DNA from: a virus
IMG/VR virus record: IMGVR_UViG_3300041409_001222
Span: 1 to 22,011 of that record
Length of the DNA stretch: 22,011 nt
Direction: 5' to 3' (one strand)
Below the pieces are notes generated by a model, which did no database searches, was not told where the DNA came from, and saw nothing but the letters and a program-made list of their open reading frames with translations. The translations under genes and the position numbers were made by a program. Each line of letters starts with the position of its first letter. Position 1 is the first letter of the stretch. Positions 9,287 to 21,266 of the stretch are shown here, piece after piece.

Positions 9287-9308
9287 GGGTGCGTTAAGCA
9301 CCCTTTTT
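9287..9308 (+). terminator. Intrinsic terminator of the P-Q operon
   Basis: A perfect six-base stem GGGTGC / GCACCC (9287-9292 and 9298-9303) with loop GTTAA is followed by TTTTT. It lies 9 nt after the Q stop. The stop codon of the converging membrane-protein gene is inside the loop, so the hairpin may serve both strands, although the T run favours the plus strand. Confidence 0.85.
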
Positions 9309-9995
9309 AATATTGTAACATCTTGGGTTGGACACCTGCTCCACATTGTTTATAACCTCAACAAACTTACTGTCTTTTATCTCCTTTAAGTAGAAAACAC
9401 CCTTACCATCTTTACACTCCTTCAAAATAAACAACCCACTAAATTCCCCTACGACTAATTTTTTATCTTCTGTTTCCCATAAAGTTGAAGCAAATTGGTT
9501 ATGATAGTTGACCCCAGCTAAAAAACTTGATACCGCCATCACAATAGCTGTTCCAGTTAAAGCCCAAAAGTTTACTTCAAGAGCACCTTCTTTTTTAGTT
9601 AGCATGCCTGAAGAAATATATACTGTGAACCAAGATGCAATCCCAAAAACGCCCCCATTAAGATAGATTACCGGATCTGTTTTTCCACTTCTTATATTGT
9701 ATATATATGAGAACACAGTAAGTGCGATGATTACCCAGAGTAAATATTTAATGTTTTCGGCCTTGAGTTTCCCATCATTACCAAAAAAGTGTACTACGCT
9801 ACCGATTATAGTGAAGAAGTAAATTAATAGCTTTAAAGAAATATTTATTACACTAGTGAGGTCAAGGTTTATATAGTATGTGGGGTAGCCGAAATAGATG
9901 GCTTCGCCGACTTTAAAACAATATGCATTTATAAATAGCACAGCAGTCAAAAGAGTAATGATTGGGAAGTCTAGCTTAGAGTTTATGCTTATCAT
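9294..9995 (-). CDS. Multi-pass membrane protein, accessory gene between Q and cos (233 aa)
   Basis: Not recognised. It has about five hydrophobic segments (residues ~10-27, 48-70, 83-99, 113-130, 143-161) and then a soluble ~70-residue C-terminal region with the pattern VVGEFSGLFILKECKDGKGV and two cysteines (in ECKDG and PRCYN). The gene is strongly AT-rich compared with the neighbouring Q and P genes and lies on the opposite strand, converging on Q. In P2 almost nothing separates Q from cos, so this is an insert. The ATG at 9995 has no convincing Shine-Dalgarno sequence. A superinfection-exclusion or membrane-effector role would fit the position, but nothing in the sequence proves it. Confidence 0.7.
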   Translation of the reverse strand: MISINSKLDFPIITLLTAVLFINAYCFKVGEAIYFGYPTYYINLDLTSVINISLKLLIYFFTIIGSVVHFFGNDGKLKAENIKYLLWVIIALTVFSYIYNIRSGKTDPVIYLNGGVFGIASWFTVYISSGMLTKKEGALEVNFWALTGTAIVMAVSSFLAGVNYHNQFASTLWETEDKKLVVGEFSGLFILKECKDGKGVFYLKEIKDSKFVEVINNVEQVSNPRCYNIKKGA

Positions 9996-10051: not shown

Positions 10052-10342
10052 CTATTCTTTAATAAGACTACCCCAGTCGAGGTCAGACTCTTCAACTACA
10101 ATATTAATAATGCAATGCACGTGATCATCGTTAATCCTAACGTAATTGAAAAGCTTTGTTTTGACAACTCCAGAGAAAGAAGAGCGGGAATCATCGTTAG
10201 AGATATTTACGTAATCACCTACGTTAGGGAGAATAAGCAAGGCGTTCTCTTCTGATGAGCAGCTTACTATATCTCCATCATCAATAGGCCTTGAATTCCC
10301 TTTAGGCAGATATTGATAATCGTAACCATATGTAGTTTTCAT
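10052..10342 (-). CDS. Small acidic protein of unknown function beside cos (96 aa)
   Basis: Not recognised. From the ATG at 10342 the product is 96 aa, acidic and likely mostly beta strand, with an N-terminal MKTTYGYDYQYLPKG, then a SSEENALLILPNVGDYVNIS segment and a C-terminus ending VVEESDLDWGSLIKE. The start was chosen because GGAGG lies seven bases upstream; the ATG five codons earlier overlaps that GGAGG. It has its own promoter (10376-10404), a palindrome near the start of transcription, and a hairpin terminator, so it is a self-contained expression unit of the kind called a moron. The genes around it are late genes that are silent in the lysogen, so expression from the prophage is plausible. 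Confidence 0.75.
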   Translation of the reverse strand: MKTTYGYDYQYLPKGNSRPIDDGDIVSCSSEENALLILPNVGDYVNISNDDSRSSFSGVVKTKLFNYVRINDDHVHCIINIVVEESDLDWGSLIKE

Positions 10343-10361
10343 TTTTAGAACCTCCAACGAT

Positions 10362-10654: not shown

Positions 10655-11539
10655 TCAAGCTGATAATGGCACTGAAACCCCTTTAAGAGTGTCAGGTACT
10701 GAAATTTTTGGGGAAAAAATCATGACTTCTTCTCCGGATTTTTTTTGTTGCGCAGTATATTGTAAGGAATATTCAACTCGCGGAAAATTGCTATAGATAT
10801 TCTTGATTTCTTCTGCATTGTCGTAAGAAACAAGCCAATTCGGGAAGTTTATTTCCTCAAGTTTCTTCATGACGAGCACATGATCATCGTGATCATAAAA
10901 ATTACGATACAACCCTTGACCTTTAACATAATAGGGAGGGTCTAAATATAAAAGAATTTTATTTTTATCGGCCTTTCCAAGGCTATCCATGAAATTCAAA
11001 CCCTCAAGGAAATCTATCGCATCCAAATTAGTAACAACAATTCTCTGATTATAATTTGCTATACTTTCGATTCTTGTTATTAAATCTTCACGATTAAAGC
11101 GCACATCCATCTTCCATTTCCCATCTTGCGCTTTTCCACCTATCACTCCTGCTTTTAAAATACCAGAACGATTAGTCCTATTTAAGAAGAATGCAGAAAA
11201 ACCAACTTCAAGTTTTGAGAACTCTGAAGGATTAGAAATAACATGACGATGAAAGCACCATTCTTCCATATTAATTTTGGCTGTGCTAATCAGCTTGCAA
11301 AGATTTTCAGTATCATCAACCACTGATGACCAAAAAGAATAGACCGCAAAGTCAGCATCATTAATATAAATCTTACGAACATATTCTTCTAATAACAATT
11401 CTAAGGCTACCCCTGCACCTCCAGCATATGGTTCAGCATAAGCTCCATCGTTTAACCGATTTTGCTCAATGACATCTTTTAAAAAATAAGATAACTTTCC
11501 TTTTCCGCCGGGATATCTTAGTGGGGTATAAAATTTCAT
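10655..11539 (-). CDS. D12-class N6-adenine DNA methyltransferase (294 aa)
   Basis: Transfers a methyl group from AdoMet to adenine N6. The order of motifs is that of the D12/Dam class: YPGGKGKL (9-16), the AdoMet motif AEPYAGGAG (35-43), FFLNRTNRSGI (117-127) and the catalytic DPPY (D200-Y203). The sequence is clearly different from the prophage's second Dam-like enzyme (16419-17219), so its target site may differ. The ATG at 11539 has AGAGG about seven bases upstream. It follows the ParB-like gene on the same strand after 69 nt that contain a perfect inverted repeat. No restriction-endonuclease gene is visible beside it. It is AT-rich and occupies the cos-A interval, where P2 has tin and old; it could protect self DNA in a defence system or modify phage DNA against host restriction. 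Confidence 0.9.
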   Translation of the reverse strand: MKFYTPLRYPGGKGKLSYFLKDVIEQNRLNDGAYAEPYAGGAGVALELLLEEYVRKIYINDADFAVYSFWSSVVDDTENLCKLISTAKINMEEWCFHRHVISNPSEFSKLEVGFSAFFLNRTNRSGILKAGVIGGKAQDGKWKMDVRFNREDLITRIESIANYNQRIVVTNLDAIDFLEGLNFMDSLGKADKNKILLYLDPPYYVKGQGLYRNFYDHDDHVLVMKKLEEINFPNWLVSYDNAEEIKNIYSNFPRVEYSLQYTAQQKKSGEEVMIFSPKISVPDTLKGVSVPLSA

Positions 11540-11573
11540 ATCTACCTCTCAAGCTTGATCCCACATCATATCA

Positions 11574-11599
11574 AAACATAGACATCCATGTCTATGTTT
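11574..11599. repeat. Perfect 12-bp inverted repeat between ParB-like and methyltransferase genes
   Basis: AAACATAGACAT and ATGTCTATGTTT flank a two-base CC centre. It lies between the stop of the ParB-like gene (11609) and the methyltransferase start (11539). In RNA the leftward transcript would form a strong stem followed by TTTTGAT, so it could be a partial terminator that limits methyltransferase expression; as DNA it could be an operator bound by either product. Confidence 0.8.
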
Positions 11600-11608
11600 G
11601 TCTTAATT

Positions 11609-13108
11609 TCAATCGCCCCAGATCAGGCTAATCAAAACTTCAAAATTATCCCATTCAGTATTAACAGCCTCTTTTGACAAAATCAGATGAGGATTATGGA
11701 CATATTGCTGCAAAGAGCCATTATGTTTAGTTATTTGGCTTGAATGAGTTATCACAGCTGTACATTGACTACCTGTCATTTTTTTTCTATCACGAAGATA
11801 GTGCGCGCACATTATAACTTTGTCGTGCAGGCCCGGATTCCTATTTGCATCTTTCTGACCAATCTGATTATCTTCTATAAAAGTACTTACAGAAAGGTCA
11901 ATGAATATACGTAATAATATAGATATTGCGTTTGGAGTAGAGTCAAATGTCAAATGACTTTTTAGCTCACTAAATATACGAGAACACTTTTTATGTCCTC
12001 TAAAATTAAGCTTGACATAGGACGGTATTAGGTTGTTTCGATCAATTTTTGGAGTGGCTTTATTCTTTCCTTTTTTCTTATCTTCTCCATCACCTTCAAA
12101 TTCAGACTCTGATTTATCTTTATCTTCAGAATAATCATCATTCTTTTTTTCTTGATTTTCAGAAGAGCTATCCCTGCTTTCTTTGATATCATCTACATCT
12201 GCAGGACTCTCATCTTCAAACTCTTCATTAACTGGTTGAGTTGAAACCTCCGGATTCGATTCAAGTAAACTCCACGGCTTATTTAAAACCATTTCAGATG
12301 ATTTGATACTTTGCTCAATAATAAAATTGACCCTATCATCTTGACTTCGAATTCTATTTACTGTGAAGCAAGGTTTCCCCTTTTCATCCTCTTCAATCAT
12401 TACTGCCAAAATATTTTTAAGTTGAGACTGAAATCGCTGATAAGGTTGAAAGCAATATAATATGCCATCAATGCTTTTTAAATTAAAGTAATCACGAACC
12501 TTTAGATCGCCAAAGAGGCGAGTTATATTTGTTATTCTTAGTAATTTCTTTTTCTCTAATATTTCTTTGAAATAATCAGTATTTAATTCTAAAAAGGTGA
12601 ATAGTTGATTACCAAATGATTGTTTACCATTTCTAGCCATATGTCTGGCTTTTTCTGGTGCCGTCCACTCGACCCTTCCTACTCCTCCATTTTGGCCGGT
12701 ATGCTTTAAATTCACCCAATGTTCGTAATCGTCATTATCAAAAACTACGCAATTATCAATGATCTTTATATCTTTGGATTGAGTGATTTTGAGCTTTTCA
12801 AAAGCCTTTCTTGCTCTTTCATTAGGGGCGAGTTTAGGGGATAACAACAACTTGAGTGCAGTAACTCGTCGATTTCCTTCTGCTACCACATAAAAACCAT
12901 CTTCATCTTCACTAGGATATACCAAAACATTCTCAGACGGGTCCAAGCCTTTTGCAACGATATCCTTGGCCAAGCGGTAGATGCGGTCGTACTGCAAATC
13001 TAGCATTTTAGCTATAGCGTCGCGTTGGTTTTCAGCTGATACAGGAAAGCGAGAGTTGTCTACATCCAAAAGTAACTTGTTGATATTCATTGATTTAATT
13101 TGATTCAT
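11609..13108 (-). CDS. ParB/sulfiredoxin-fold protein with acidic linker and helical C-terminal domain (499 aa)
   Basis: The N-terminal ~110 residues look like a ParB-N/Srx domain: a leading strand-loop (INKLLLDVDNSRFP, 9-22), then the nucleotide-binding box VVAEGNRRVTALKLL with G78-N79-R80-R81. A helical middle follows to ~270. Residues ~290-370 are a very acidic then lysine-rich, low-complexity linker. The C-terminal ~130 residues are predicted helical and end in a conserved-looking SLQQYVHNPHL...WDNFEVLISLIWG pattern. In related folds this box binds CTP or ATP; some members are nucleases. The ATG at 13108 is preferred because GAGGA lies nine bases upstream; the frame extends 20 codons to 13168 without a good RBS. 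It is far too divergent and wrongly placed to be a partition ParB, and there is no parA. A sensor or effector partnered with the methyltransferase is my inference. Confidence 0.8.
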   Translation of the reverse strand: MNQIKSMNINKLLLDVDNSRFPVSAENQRDAIAKMLDLQYDRIYRLAKDIVAKGLDPSENVLVYPSEDEDGFYVVAEGNRRVTALKLLLSPKLAPNERARKAFEKLKITQSKDIKIIDNCVVFDNDDYEHWVNLKHTGQNGGVGRVEWTAPEKARHMARNGKQSFGNQLFTFLELNTDYFKEILEKKKLLRITNITRLFGDLKVRDYFNLKSIDGILYCFQPYQRFQSQLKNILAVMIEEDEKGKPCFTVNRIRSQDDRVNFIIEQSIKSSEMVLNKPWSLLESNPEVSTQPVNEEFEDESPADVDDIKESRDSSSENQEKKNDDYSEDKDKSESEFEGDGEDKKKGKNKATPKIDRNNLIPSYVKLNFRGHKKCSRIFSELKSHLTFDSTPNAISILLRIFIDLSVSTFIEDNQIGQKDANRNPGLHDKVIMCAHYLRDRKKMTGSQCTAVITHSSQITKHNGSLQQYVHNPHLILSKEAVNTEWDNFEVLISLIWGD

Positions 13109-13353
13109 TAAAACATCCTCTGTCGAATTCTTGACGTCAAAAGATCCATTTTTTATCATAATTTGCATACTAGCAATAGGGTTGAATGTATTATCACTTC
13201 TGCGGTGAATCGTTCTCGTTCCCGCATGTTTAATCCTTATTGGCTTTTTAATCCGACAATTTACACAGACAGTTTAAATTTTTGATAAATCTTGCTGACG
13301 TGCTGCAAGCGCTGAATAAAAGCATTTAGATAGTGCTAATCATCATTTTTGAA

Positions 13354-13386: not shown

Positions 13387-13548
13387 TTAAAAAGCAACGC
13401 AACTATGCGCCTGTAAACTTAAGTGGCCTAAACAGAAGCCGCCGCCGTTCTCTTTTGGCCGCTGAAAGAAAACTAATCCGCCAGGCGCATAATCAGTCAG
13501 GCTTTCGCCCCGGTAAACTACCTGATAATTTGAATCGCTTCCGGCCAT
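13387..13548 (-). CDS. Short conserved-looking protein, second gene behind the LexA box (53 aa)
   Basis: A short frame beginning MAGSDSNYQVVYRGESLTDY, with a G/F-rich centre (PGGLVFFQRP, NGGGFCLGHLSL) and two cysteines. The composition and regular strand pattern look like a real small protein, not a chance frame. The ATG at 13548 has only a weak AGG nearby; an in-frame GTG lies at 13563. It follows the 61-aa gene on the same strand by 99 nt, so both could share the LexA-controlled promoter, as orf97 follows tum in phage 186. I do not recognise the family and assign no function. Confidence 0.55.
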   Translation of the reverse strand: MAGSDSNYQVVYRGESLTDYAPGGLVFFQRPKENGGGFCLGHLSLQAHSCVAF

Positions 13549-13647
13549 AGCCTGACGCCTCACGGTACTCGTTGTTCAACCTTGCCAGCGCCAAAAATAA
13601 ATTTTGTCGCCAGCAACGTTATCAATATGCCTGGCTGTGGACTCAGG

Positions 13648-13833
13648 CTATTCCGCAGCGTAAAAAATCTCATCGTCAGGGACTTTTTCACAGCTCGAAT
13701 GCGCTAACTCAGCGATGATACTCATCGCCAATTTCATGTCAGATTGCTTGCAATTTGCTATAAGCGACACCTCAGCAATGAACTGAACGCAAGCCATCTT
13801 ACGGTTTATCGGTGCCAAATCTTGAGTGTCCAT
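13648..13833 (-). CDS. Small protein under LexA control, tum-operon position (61 aa)
   Basis: 61 aa (MDTQDLAPINRKMACVQF...), mostly predicted helix in the middle and ending in an acidic tail (VPDDEIFYAAE). A very strong Shine-Dalgarno sequence (GGGAGGG) lies six bases before the ATG. Twenty-three bases further upstream is a near-consensus LexA site, so expression should rise after DNA damage. It lies just downstream of A, between A and cos, on the strand and at the place where phage 186 and Fels-2 encode the LexA-regulated antirepressor Tum. The protein is shorter than 186 Tum and I cannot show homology; an antirepressor role is inference from position and regulation. Confidence 0.75.
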   Translation of the reverse strand: MDTQDLAPINRKMACVQFIAEVSLIANCKQSDMKLAMSIIAELAHSSCEKVPDDEIFYAAE

Positions 13834-13856
13834 CTAACCCTCCCTTTACTCTAAAG

Positions 13857-13888
13857 ACTGTATAAGCATACAGTAGTAGATGCGTTAA
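13857..13888 (-). promoter_or_regulatory. LexA (SOS) box overlapping a promoter
   Basis: ACTGTATAAGCATACAGT (13857-13874) is a perfect dyad and fits the enterobacterial LexA consensus CTGT-N8-ACAG, with an A on both outer sides as preferred. On the minus strand it overlaps the -10 of a promoter: TTAACG (13883-13888) and TATACA (13859-13864), 18 bases apart. LexA binding should block transcription of the 61-aa gene until SOS induction. The arrangement mirrors p95 of phage 186. Confidence 0.85.
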
Positions 13889-13991
13889 GAAATGTGAAAT
13901 GTTTTTTCCTTCAATCGGTCCTAATCTGAAAATGAAAACTACGATTACCAGCGATTCCAAGCTGTTATTTTGATTGGATAAAGCGTTTACT

Positions 13992-14031: not shown

Positions 14032-16419
14032 TCAGATCCATTGACGCCACTTATCGTCTTCCTGCAGCCGCCCGTTCCGGTAAAAAATTCTCATCCCCGC
14101 GCCAGAACTGATACTGCCACCGGCCAGAAGCAGGTTTGTTTCATTCTCTTGACCGGTAAAACCTCTCGCTAGCAACTCTGCAACCAGAAGCGCCCGCTGA
14201 TCGTCATCAATTTGCTGCTTGTAACCCTTTTTCTGACGCGGTTTCACTACCCGGAGACGCGCCAGCAGATCCCGGCGCTGTTTTCTGGTCATATTGTCGA
14301 AATCTCCCGGACCATAAAGAGGCGTTTCACCCGGTTCTATAGGTTCAACAGATACCGGTTTGCCCCCTGAAATGTTCAGTTTTTCATCAAGGGGACAGTT
14401 ATTGCCACGAGTCCAAGGGGCGCTAGCGCCCTGGTCGGCTGTCGCCTCCTGGTCGGCTGTCGCCTCCTGAACGTCAACGGCCTTACGGACCATCTTCCAC
14501 TTTGTTGCGTGCGTGCAGATACGGCCCGCCACTAACGGGGACCAGATGCCATAAATGCGGGTGCCGTGATCGCCGTAAGGGGTAGGCTCGTCGTTAAGCT
14601 CGTAAGCCGTCCTGACGATGTGATGTTTGCGCGGAACCAGTACGCCGCCCTGTTTCATGATGTAGGTGGCAAAGCAGCCCACATCTGCAGCGGCCAGCAC
14701 GGCGTCCAGCTGAGCGTTTTCAAGCACCGGCGCACCTGCTTTTTTATCGCTCTGATTTCTCAGCGCCTGACCGGCAAGCAGACGCAGTTCCCGGTAAGCC
14801 TGGCGGCCCGGAATACCAAAGAAGCGGAACTGCTGAACGCGATGAAGTGACGCCCACGCGCCTACGTTCTCCGCGCTGTCACGCAGGGATTTTCCGGTTT
14901 CGTTGCTGATTTCATCGGACAGGCCACGGGCATCAATATTTTTACTCACGTACTTAGCGATATAACTGGTCGGTGAACCTTTGCGCGGGTTGATGAGTTC
15001 AGCTTTAAAGCGTGGCCCGGTATTGTTGCCAAGCTCTTCGCGGTCTTCGCGAATGGCAAATTTCCGCAGCAGTGCGGTAACTGAACGGCGCTCTTTTTTG
15101 CGCATGAAGCACAGCAGGTGCCAGTGTACGGTGCCATCATGATGCGGCTCCGCAACCCGCACGCCATACCAGCGCATCCCGCCTTTATGCATGGCCTTAC
15201 GGAAAGCAGCAAAGGTATCGACCAGATAATCACTGCTCTGGCGAACGGTGGCCGTGGTCCACTTCGGATTCGGCCTGCCGTTGTTAAGCGTTGCGTGGAA
15301 ACGTGACGGGCAGGTGATAGTGTAAAACACGGCGCAGTCGCCGCGCATTTTCGCGATAAGCTCCAGCCCTTTAACACAGGCCATCATTTCATTGCGGCGA
15401 TGTGCCGGGTTGCTGTTACTGGCATTTACCACGTCTTCCATATCCAGCGTATCGCCTTCATTACTGATCAGCTCATGTGAGCGGAAGAACTCCAGAGACT
15501 TCCTGCGCTGCTCACGCTTATGGATCACCGCCTCATAGCTGACGTAGGGGGACGCTTTTTTGTTGACCAGGCAGACAGCACGCAGCTGCTCTTCACGCCA
15601 TTCACAACGCAGCTGCCACAGCTTGCGATACCACCAGTCCGCGCAGAGCATACGGGCCAGCGAGGGCGGGATCAGATCATAGGGTACGGGCTTGCGACGG
15701 CGCTTTTTGCGGCGCAGGCGCTCAAAGGCCGGGGGGATTACGTCCAGGCGCATCGCTTCCGCTGCAACCAGTTCCCATGCCTGGCGGACCTGCTCCGGCG
15801 TCACGTCATCACTGACGAACAGATGGCCGCTGGCCTTATCCAGACACATGCTCATGTGCGCAGCGACCAGCGTAGATAAACGCTTGACCTGATTCTGGTT
15901 CATTTCAGGCAACGCCAGCAGGCCGTCCAGCCCGTCATGACCGGCCATAAAACGGAATGAGGCTGAAATCTGGCTTTCGCGCACGCGGGCTAGCCTCTCA
16001 AGGCAGGGGCGAATAGTTTCGCGCAGGTAGCGGGAATAAGCCTGCGGCCTGCCGAGATTGTGGAAAAACTTAACGCGCTCCATGAGTGGCTTGCTGATGT
16101 GCGAAGGCTGGGCGCTAACATCGGCCACGATGACTAGATCGGGATTGTGTTGCTGCTGTTCGCGGGCCATCTTTGCCCGGCTGATAATTCTGTCCTGCAC
16201 AATTTCACGCTGGACGGGATCGCGGGACTCGTTGAAAAAATAGCGCTCCCAAACCTCATCACTCAAAGCCTCACGGCGCAGCTGTTCCTGCTTGTTATCC
16301 GCTGCATAGAGAGTGATTAGGTTTGAAAGCGCGGACACCGGCGTAACTTCCGCCGGGTCCAGCTTTGGATTGATTGCCTTTTTAGGGGCATTCCATGGGT
16401 ATGCGTAAACCTGAGTCAT
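14032..16419 (-). CDS. A: Replication initiation endonuclease A (HUH superfamily)
   Basis: 795 aa (P2 gpA 761 aa). It nicks one strand at the phage origin and starts rolling-circle replication, covalently joined through tyrosine. The HUH motif is VHWH (H432, H434), motif 1 is [11 protein letters not shown] (365-375), and the twin catalytic tyrosines are in [10 protein letters not shown] (Y486 and Y490), the same YxxxY spacing as P2 Y450/Y454. A basic patch RRKKRRRKP lies near residue 236-244. In P2 the origin lies inside A; I cannot place it here. A stretch near residue 665 carries a six-residue tandem repeat (EATADQ twice). The ATG overlaps the dam stop by one base (TAATG). It is the last gene of the cox-to-A early operon. 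Confidence 0.95.
14418..14466. repeat. Palindrome and 18-bp tandem repeat inside A
   Basis: A perfect 14-bp palindrome GGGCGCTAGCGCCC (14418-14431) is followed at once by two exact tandem copies of CTGGTCGGCTGTCGCCTC (14431-14448 and 14449-14466). The repeat is in frame and encodes the doubled ATADQE motif of the A protein. It sits in the weakly conserved C-terminal region. Confidence 0.85.
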
Positions 16420-19125: not shown

Positions 19126-19977
19126 ATGACCGATTACAACAGCGATGTTAAGGCCATACTGGAGAGAATCCTTAAATCTTATGGGGTTAGCTCACGCCCA
19201 GAGCTCGCGGAACTTTTGAAAATTCCGTTACCTACTATCCAAAATTGGGTGGCTCGCCAGAGTTTACCCGGCGATTACATAGTTCAATGCGCATTGGATA
19301 CAGGAGTAAGCCTTAGATGGCTGGTTAATGGTGAACTTGCAAATGTAAGTTCAGATGGGGCAAAGCATCCCTCTCTTAAAGGGAAGAAGCTTCATGACAC
19401 TATGCTAGCTAATGGCGGGCGGGCAGTGCTGGATCGCATAATGCACGCATATGGCTTTACTATGCAGAAGCAACTCGGTGACTTGCTTGATATTCCTTCA
19501 GCGACGATGAGCGCATGGGTTCGCAGAGATTATTTTCCAGGTGATGTTGTCATTACATGCGCACTTGATACGGGGGTTTCTCTTTCTTGGTTAGCTACTG
19601 GCCATGAGGATGAGGCACTTCCCCCGAGAGATTTAGCTGATCAGCTGATACCATCCATACCTGCACGAAAACTCTCCGGAGGCACATTAGAGAATCAGGC
19701 TGATGTGAGTTTTAATCTTTCTCTTTTTGGCTTTGATTTAACTAACCCCCTCTATATTCAACGCGGCTCGATGTCATGGATCGTGGAAGGGGAGGCCCAG
19801 ACCATTGGTAATGGTGATTGGCTATTAGATATTGATGGAAATAAAGATATTTATACCGTGTCACGCCTTCCGGGTAATAGGATCAAAGTTACTAACAATT
19901 CATCTTCATTTGAATGTTCAGAAAGTGATGTAAATCCTATTGGCTTCGTAATGCTGACAATATCCAAAAATTTATAG
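19126..19977 (+). CDS. CI-like repressor with two tandem DNA-binding domains (283 aa)
   Basis: Maintains lysogeny by repressing the early promoter. Residues 10-70 and 100-160 are two copies of the 186-type CI N-terminal domain, offset by exactly 90 residues and about half identical by eye: both have AxLxRI...YG, LLxIP, WVxR, PGD and CALDTGVSL-W. After a linker (161-195), residues ~196-283 form the usual beta-rich C-terminal oligomerisation domain (GFDLTNPLYIQRGSMSWIVE, NGDWLLD, NPIGFVMLTIS). The normal family length is about 190 aa with one DNA-binding domain, so the extra ~90 residues are an internal duplication. There is no S24 peptidase motif, so induction should be by antirepressor, not RecA cleavage, which fits the LexA-controlled small genes. 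AAGG lies six bases before the ATG. Confidence 0.93.
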   Translation: MTDYNSDVKAILERILKSYGVSSRPELAELLKIPLPTIQNWVARQSLPGDYIVQCALDTGVSLRWLVNGELANVSSDGAKHPSLKGKKLHDTMLANGGRAVLDRIMHAYGFTMQKQLGDLLDIPSATMSAWVRRDYFPGDVVITCALDTGVSLSWLATGHEDEALPPRDLADQLIPSIPARKLSGGTLENQADVSFNLSLFGFDLTNPLYIQRGSMSWIVEGEAQTIGNGDWLLDIDGNKDIYTVSRLPGNRIKVTNNSSSFECSESDVNPIGFVMLTISKNL

Positions 19978-20234: not shown

Positions 20235-21266
20235 ATGTCCATTAAAAAACTGTCATCTGGCGAATGGCTTGCTGATTTTTATTTAGATGGGCGCGGCAGT
20301 CGACGTGTTAGGAAAAGCTTTGCGACAAAAGGTGAAGCGGTAGCTTTTGAAGATTACACGCGCGCTGAGGCCGGAAACAAACCGTGGATAAAAGAGAAGG
20401 AGGATCGCCGCAAGCTTAGTGAGCTGATAAATCTCTGGGATTCTCTACATGGGCAGTCGCTCAAGGCCGTCAAATCTCGTAAGGCAAAATTAGATATTGT
20501 GTGTGCCGGATTAGGTGATCCGATAGCCTCTCAATTGACGGCAAAAGATTGGGCGCATTATCGTGACCAGCGCTTGAAGGGTAAAATTTCTAATGGCTAT
20601 CACGACGATAAATCAAAGTGGAAAGTAAAGCCTATTACTGTCAACAGAGAGCAAAACTATCTTGCCGCTGTTTTCAATGAACTGAAGCGATTAGGGGAAT
20701 GGACTTTACCTAACCCACTGGAAGGTGTCAGGACGTTCCGGGAAGACGAAAAGGAAATGTCCTGGCTTACCTTAAGGCAGATCACAGAACTTCTGAATGG
20801 CTGCGAGCTTTACGGAAAGCCAGACTTAAAGATGATATGCAAAGTTTGCCTGGCTACTGGTGCGCGCTGGACTGAAGCGGAAACCTTGACCCGTTCACAG
20901 CTATCGCCTAATAAACTTTCATTCTTTAAAACTAAAGGCGGTAAAAACAGAACGGTTCCTATCCAGGCATGGCTTTATGACGAGCTAAAGGAACGGCAGG
21001 GCAGGATGTTTAAGCCATGCTATCAGGACTTCAAGAAGATGCTGGCTACTACTACTATCCAGCTTATAGAAGGTCAGAAGACTCATGTGCTACGGCACAC
21101 TTTTGCCAGCCATTTTATGATGAACGGTGGCAACATTCTGGTGCTTCAAAGAATACTCGGTCACGCTAACATCCGTGAAACCATGAAGTATGCTCATTTT
21201 GCTCCAGACCATTTAGAAGAAGCGGCGGCGCTTAATCCTCTGACAAGTTTGATGTCCACAAATTGA
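20235..21266 (+). CDS. int: Tyrosine-recombinase integrase
   Basis: 343 aa (P2 Int 337 aa). It integrates and, with Cox, excises the prophage. The N-terminus (VRKSFATKGEAVAFEDYTR) is the arm-binding region, followed by a core-binding domain (~60-160) and the catalytic domain with R211 (ATGARWTE), H284-x2-R287 (HVLRH), H310 (LGHANI) and nucleophile Y319 (MKYAHF). The ATG is one base after the membrane-protein stop and has no strong Shine-Dalgarno sequence, so translation is probably coupled. The attachment site should lie just downstream. Confidence 0.96.
   Translation: MSIKKLSSGEWLADFYLDGRGSRRVRKSFATKGEAVAFEDYTRAEAGNKPWIKEKEDRRKLSELINLWDSLHGQSLKAVKSRKAKLDIVCAGLGDPIASQLTAKDWAHYRDQRLKGKISNGYHDDKSKWKVKPITVNREQNYLAAVFNELKRLGEWTLPNPLEGVRTFREDEKEMSWLTLRQITELLNGCELYGKPDLKMICKVCLATGARWTEAETLTRSQLSPNKLSFFKTKGGKNRTVPIQAWLYDELKERQGRMFKPCYQDFKKMLATTTIQLIEGQKTHVLRHTFASHFMMNGGNILVLQRILGHANIRETMKYAHFAPDHLEEAAALNPLTSLMSTN

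Follow-up and report, generated by a model that had tools for sequence, protein, structure and literature searches.

A predicted stand-alone TumA antirepressor gene behind a LexA operator in a P2/186-type prophage

How can a prophage be induced by DNA damage when its own repressor carries no self-cleavage domain? This question is raised by the window, i.e., the whole stretch of 22,011 bases analyzed here, which comes from an IMG/VR virus record and has a gene content of the P2/186 type. In addition to an integrase (20235-21266, + strand) and to Cox-like and CII-like regulators, the window encodes a CI repressor of 283 aa (19126..19977, + strand) with two Phage_CI_repr HTH matches and one Phage_CI_C match. 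A predicted model of this protein again shows two HTH domains and a C-terminal domain (pLDDT 81.2, pTM 0.40). The peptidase S24 model gave no match in the 283 aa which, together with the Phage_CI domains, supports the proposal of a first-pass annotation, made from the letters alone, that the repressor of this prophage is devoid of a self-cleavage domain. The presumed partner of this CI is a small gene located near the replication region.

A putative SOS-type promoter upstream of a tumA homologue

The gene in question (13648..13833, - strand) is found downstream of replication gene A (14032..16419, - strand), used here as the positional marker upstream of the tum operon. Its 61-aa product belongs to PHROG 1993 (7e-26, residues 6-61) and shares 64.7% identity over 51 aa with TumA of phage PSP3 (NP_958094). 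Residues 1-61 of the Tum protein of phage 186 fall in the same PHROG (1e-22), with a pairwise identity to the window protein of only 22%, and the homology extends across the whole 60-aa TumA or N-terminal Tum domain. The PSP3 record annotates TumA as 'similar to 5' end 186 tum; UV induction of prophage'; TumB, encoded directly behind it, is described there as 'similar to dinI and 3' end of 186 tum'. In a passage on PSP3, the antirepressor activity is assigned to the upstream gene on the basis of a personal communication (Lemire et al., 2011; PMC3121763). Similarly, a 2020 paper on 186 describes that Tum, expressed from the LexA-regulated p95 promoter, inhibits CI, leading to induction (PMC7708051). 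Given the PHROG match, the PSP3 annotation and this literature, the gene is identified as tumA and the mechanism proposed in the first-pass annotation would be the known one. That annotation considered both short proteins as unrecognised and unlike 186 Tum, and one of them possibly as a new minimal antirepressor. For the first gene, the shared PHROG led us to reject the idea of an unrelated new protein; judging from homology and from the statement on PSP3, the antirepressor reading is very probably right and the claim of novelty wrong, the 61-aa protein being about 65% identical to PSP3 TumA. Most likely, the window gene corresponds to the N-terminal, antirepressor half of 186 Tum, encoded as a separate protein. 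An AlphaFold2 model predicts a helical hairpin (H3-25 and H30-45; mean pLDDT 75.7, pTM 0.53), for which neither a PDB fold search with the model (best E 4.7) nor a PDB sequence search with the TumA alignment returned a match.

Upstream of tumA, a LexA operator or SOS box (GACTGTATAAGCATACAGTA, 13856..13875) differs from the 20-mer TACTGTATATNNATACAGTA by 2 mismatches and ends 22 nt before the ATG. None of 100 shuffles contained any match at 3 mismatches or fewer, and the looser pattern CTGT-N8-ACAG occurs once in the window for 0.18 expected. A putative promoter (13870..13898, - strand) was read by eye, with a -35 element TTCACA (13893-13898) separated by a 17-nt spacer from a -10 element TACTGT (13870-13875) that is located inside the LexA box, a layout also annotated for p95 of 186. 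A ribosome-binding site GGGAGGG (13838..13844, - strand), likewise read by eye, precedes the gene. The operator is conserved in place in relatives encoding a PHROG 1993 protein (class I), of which at least 80 loci were obtained from a scan of viral contigs and 3 from genome contigs (Pantoea, Franconibacter). Of the 83 class I loci listed, 81 have both LexA half-sites 16-23 nt 5' of tumA, the exceptions being L063 and L077 with CTGG instead of CTGT in one half-site; no such pair was seen in 1538 random 60-nt stretches from these loci. The near-consensus dyad over the -10 element and the strong ribosome-binding site, both pointed out in the first-pass annotation, are therefore confirmed, and the layout of the LexA box as well as the gene order after A support its placement of an SOS operator-controlled operon in the position of 186 tum.

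Among known systems, PSP3 TumA resembles the window protein in its length, its PHROG, a LexA box about 20 nt upstream and its position after gene A, and the phage also encodes a double-HTH CI. PSP3 differs by the presence of tumB (DinI) directly after tumA, where the window harbors a truncated PHROG 2100 ORF. The 186 Tum, described in the 2020 paper as a CI antirepressor (PMC7708051) and to which the window TumA is likened by sequence, shares homologous residues 1-61 and the -10 element of p95 within the LexA site, but is 146 aa long with a DinI domain fused behind, and the CIs next to 186-type Tum present a single HTH of a class different from that of the window. PHROG 698 proteins, as found in Klebsiella ST13-OXA48phi12.1, Salmonella SEN8, and Escherichia Cartapus, are also about 62 aa long and encoded before dinI; their profile is weakly similar to PHROG 1993, yet they constitute a family of their own, and the CI they are paired with has one HTH, of another class. 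By their description in Lemire et al. (PMC3121763), GfoA and GftA of the Gifsy phages are, as proposed for the window TumA, small LexA-controlled antirepressors of non-cleaved repressors, whereas dinI comes first in these phages.

Agreement between Tum and CI classes

Tum proteins were assigned to class I (PHROG 1993), class II (PHROG 698) or class III (fused 186 type), and the CTD-proximal HTH domains of the CIs were classified for comparison. Tum, A and CI could all be assigned in 205 of 243 sequences, whereas 38 lacked CI, A or both. The two classes agree in 199 of the 205 loci, which share ancestry and are not independent since each Tum class was sampled through its best hits. The agreement holds within both types of replication gene (92/95 and 107/110). 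After clustering at 90%, 44 of 49 clusters agree, a number reached by none of 10000 shuffles within A type (maximum 34). In a partial Mantel test on 178 distinct loci, from which L013 and loci with an A shorter than 400 aa were left out, TumA is related to the HTH given A and CTD (0.35, p 0.001) and not to the CTD given A and HTH (-0.03). The class of TumA and the HTH class of CI are thus co-inherited, and their agreement across different replication genes is reported here for the first time. The six mismatches are L013, L017, L140, L211, L240, and L249; the CI of L013 is oddly placed, 7 kb downstream, and was scored as a mismatch in the count of 205, and no second Tum class was shown in these six loci. 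Within class I alone (53 loci), there is no clear relation of TumA to the HTH given A (0.055, p 0.051) and a weak one to the CTD (0.135, p 0.001), so that matching inside the class does not serve as a proof of the HTH as target.

The double-domain CI, considered unusual in the first-pass annotation, is common in this class. Indeed, among the matches listed, two HTH domains are found in 51 of the 58 CIs of class I loci (including that of the window) and in the CI of PSP3 (286 aa, encoded by 861 nt), compared to 1 of 74 loci in class II and 1 of 73 in class III. The same annotation suggested an antirepressor matched to this double-domain repressor. The match holds for the HTH class and fails for the number of domains: a one-HTH CI with an unchanged HTH class is encoded in five class I loci, and in L017 a TumA 97% identical to that of the window is found beside a one-HTH CI of another class (1643-2224). 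Tuning of TumA to a two-domain CI was therefore rejected.

In addition, TumA proteins that are identical in amino acids occur with CIs that are only 36-42% identical in the CTD and 69-78% in HTH2 (L011, L007). Since an identical TumA pairs with CIs of 36% CTD identity, TumA does not appear to be tuned to a single repressor, which is also new here; on sequence grounds it matches CI at the level of the class and not of the phage. The CTD-proximal HTH domain may, very tentatively, be the part of CI that is contacted. The same identical proteins could also be expected if the TumA homologue had been retained for another SOS or regulatory target, e.g., modulation of RecA or LexA, with CI inactivated otherwise, and so could the fusion of the TumA family to DinI, a RecA modulator, in 186 or its position before DinI in PSP3. 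This explanation is unlikely, since the half acting on RecA is the DinI half, absent here, since the TumA class tracks the CI class across replication-gene types, and since the passage on PSP3 credits the TumA half with the antirepressor activity (PMC3121763).

The second ORF, the adjoining cargo and a covarying hairpin

No DinI match, fused or as a next gene, was found after tumA in the window. In the near clade (30 sequences: the window, L006-L033, and L086), DinI similarity 3' of tumA is present in 8 and missing in 22, including the window. Among these 8, L016 and L022 have a dinI interrupted by in-frame stops. By eye, L033 appears to harbor a dinI 3' remnant. The second ORF of the window (13387..13548, - strand) is open over 53 aa from the ATG at 13548, or 58 aa from a GTG. 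It is best interpreted as a truncated gene because its match is limited to residues 1-43 of the 85-aa PHROG 2100 profile; its sequence leaves that of the relatives near 13430, and the PD-Lambda-5 cargo comes after. L007, L009, and L012, among others, carry a longer member of the family (267 nt). The two-gene SOS operon of the first-pass annotation thus stands for its LexA-box promoter and first gene, the second ORF not being intact.

The missing DinI in 22 of the 30 near-clade loci and the copies broken by stops, together with the truncation of the second ORF, might reflect a decaying SOS operon in which tumA itself is no longer functional. We regard this as quite improbable: tumA is under strong purifying selection (pN/pS 0.09 among 52 distinct 61-codon genes, 0.05 for residues 12-46), the window gene differs from 4 of the 12 compared relatives at silent sites only, and the LexA box is intact. 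The notion that the second ORF is the antirepressor instead of TumA, or that both are required, is highly improbable, the position of this ORF behind the shared LexA box and the occurrence of PHROG 2100 after tumA or dinI in many relatives being outweighed by its truncation to half the family length and by the many class I loci with neither dinI nor a PHROG 2100 gene; it would be a truncated passenger, not needed for the induction switch.

The tum operon adjoins defence genes (10655-13168, - strand) identified by PADLOC as PD-Lambda-5 A (11609-13168) and B (10655-11539). At the same place, Klebsiella ST13-OXA48phi12.1 encodes RloB and an ATP-binding protein. Two more cargo ORFs of 233 aa (9294-9995) and 101 aa (10052-10357), both on the - strand, had no match in PADLOC or NCBIfam; the former, also without a Pfam match, belongs to PHROG 35408, of unknown function. 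In nine loci (L066, L073, L074, L076, L078-L080, L083, and L084), an apparent tail X-like ORF was seen by eye at most about 210 nt past tumA with no cargo in between; such loci could represent satellites or prophages that have been rearranged.

A covarying hairpin of 43 nt (13578..13620, - strand) is found between tumA and the second ORF; in relatives it is located after dinI or orf97. Its 3' flank of about 30 nt (13550..13577, - strand), of the form GAACAACGAG-N4-GCGAGGCGTTAG-like and here GTGAGGCGTCAGGC, is nearly fixed and overlaps the likely ribosome-binding site of the second ORF. The hairpin stands right behind the last replication or SOS gene and before the variable cargo, and some relatives diverge immediately past it. 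A pattern search allowing up to 5 substitutions returned 311 elements (201 distinct) distributed over 296 loci, an enriched set, as some of the sequences had been retrieved with the motif itself; in loci oriented on tum, the element is on the tum strand in 179 of 179 cases. In an alignment of 54 elements (A8; 55 element rows without L332 and L039, plus the window), both partners have changed in 14 of 19 pairs, a count that is the weakest measure alone as it is reached by 31 of 500 shuffles. The covariation score is 0.485 vs. 0.230 (sd 0.011) when shuffled and at most 0.148 when slid, in a test that favors paired cells since elements were pre-filtered by fold and distinctness and weak predicted folds already dropped.

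By blastn, 71 phage records contain the hairpin, among them 186 (30344-30414, where no feature is annotated), PSP3, which has two copies, and Wphi, where it is located between orf92 and mth. Two pattern matches were obtained in 15 loci, some of them doubtful by fold, and are 405 nt apart in 14; L102 carries two identical copies (at 10349 and 14892) forming a direct repeat that brackets about 4.5 kb, and in some genomes the two copies flank a gene. An identity with t95a or t95b of 186 was rejected, the 186 hairpin being a separate unannotated stretch between orf97 and t95b. The GTTAGGC-like letters at the end of the hairpin suggested an integron attC site, in which such an end pairs with a 5' CTAAC arm. 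This candidate was set aside by eye because the pairing 5' arm is not conserved here. No Rfam family matched at gathering score, the P2 cos core was not found in the window at 3 mismatches, and a literature search yielded no description of such a hairpin. Its recurrence with a conserved 3' flank at the cargo edge of 186, PSP3, and Wphi is new here. That hairpin and flank form an undescribed structured DNA or RNA element serving as a docking or exchange point for cassette-like cargo in P2-type phages is a speculative reading, of rather low probability; it may be a cargo boundary or an RNA element.

A proposed induction switch and its meaning

LexA would silence tumA in the lysogen by occupying the -10 element. 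Upon DNA damage, LexA would be inactivated and TumA made; TumA would then bind the prophage's own CI, which has no self-cleavage domain, and the early promoter would be derepressed, resulting in prophage induction. As a whole, this mechanism is the best explanation, with a probability of roughly 0.83. In vivo SOS control, CI binding, and prophage induction are inferred from relatives, the latter two steps being reported in the literature on PSP3 and 186 (PMC3121763, PMC7708051).

The window gene would thus be an ordinary member of a family that is itself of interest, adding to the TumA antirepressors a stand-alone representative without the usual DinI gene. A 61-aa antirepressor half of Tum without DinI would reduce the induction switch to a minimal unit that can be tested. 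From the observed pairing, with three classes on the Tum side and three on the HTH side, one can predict the repressors that each antirepressor should be able to switch off and, by extension, the prophages liable to be induced together in one cell. The covarying hairpin that borders the defence region provides a new lead on the exchange of cargo among P2-type phages. Of these results, the pairing rule and the hairpin deserve to be followed up.
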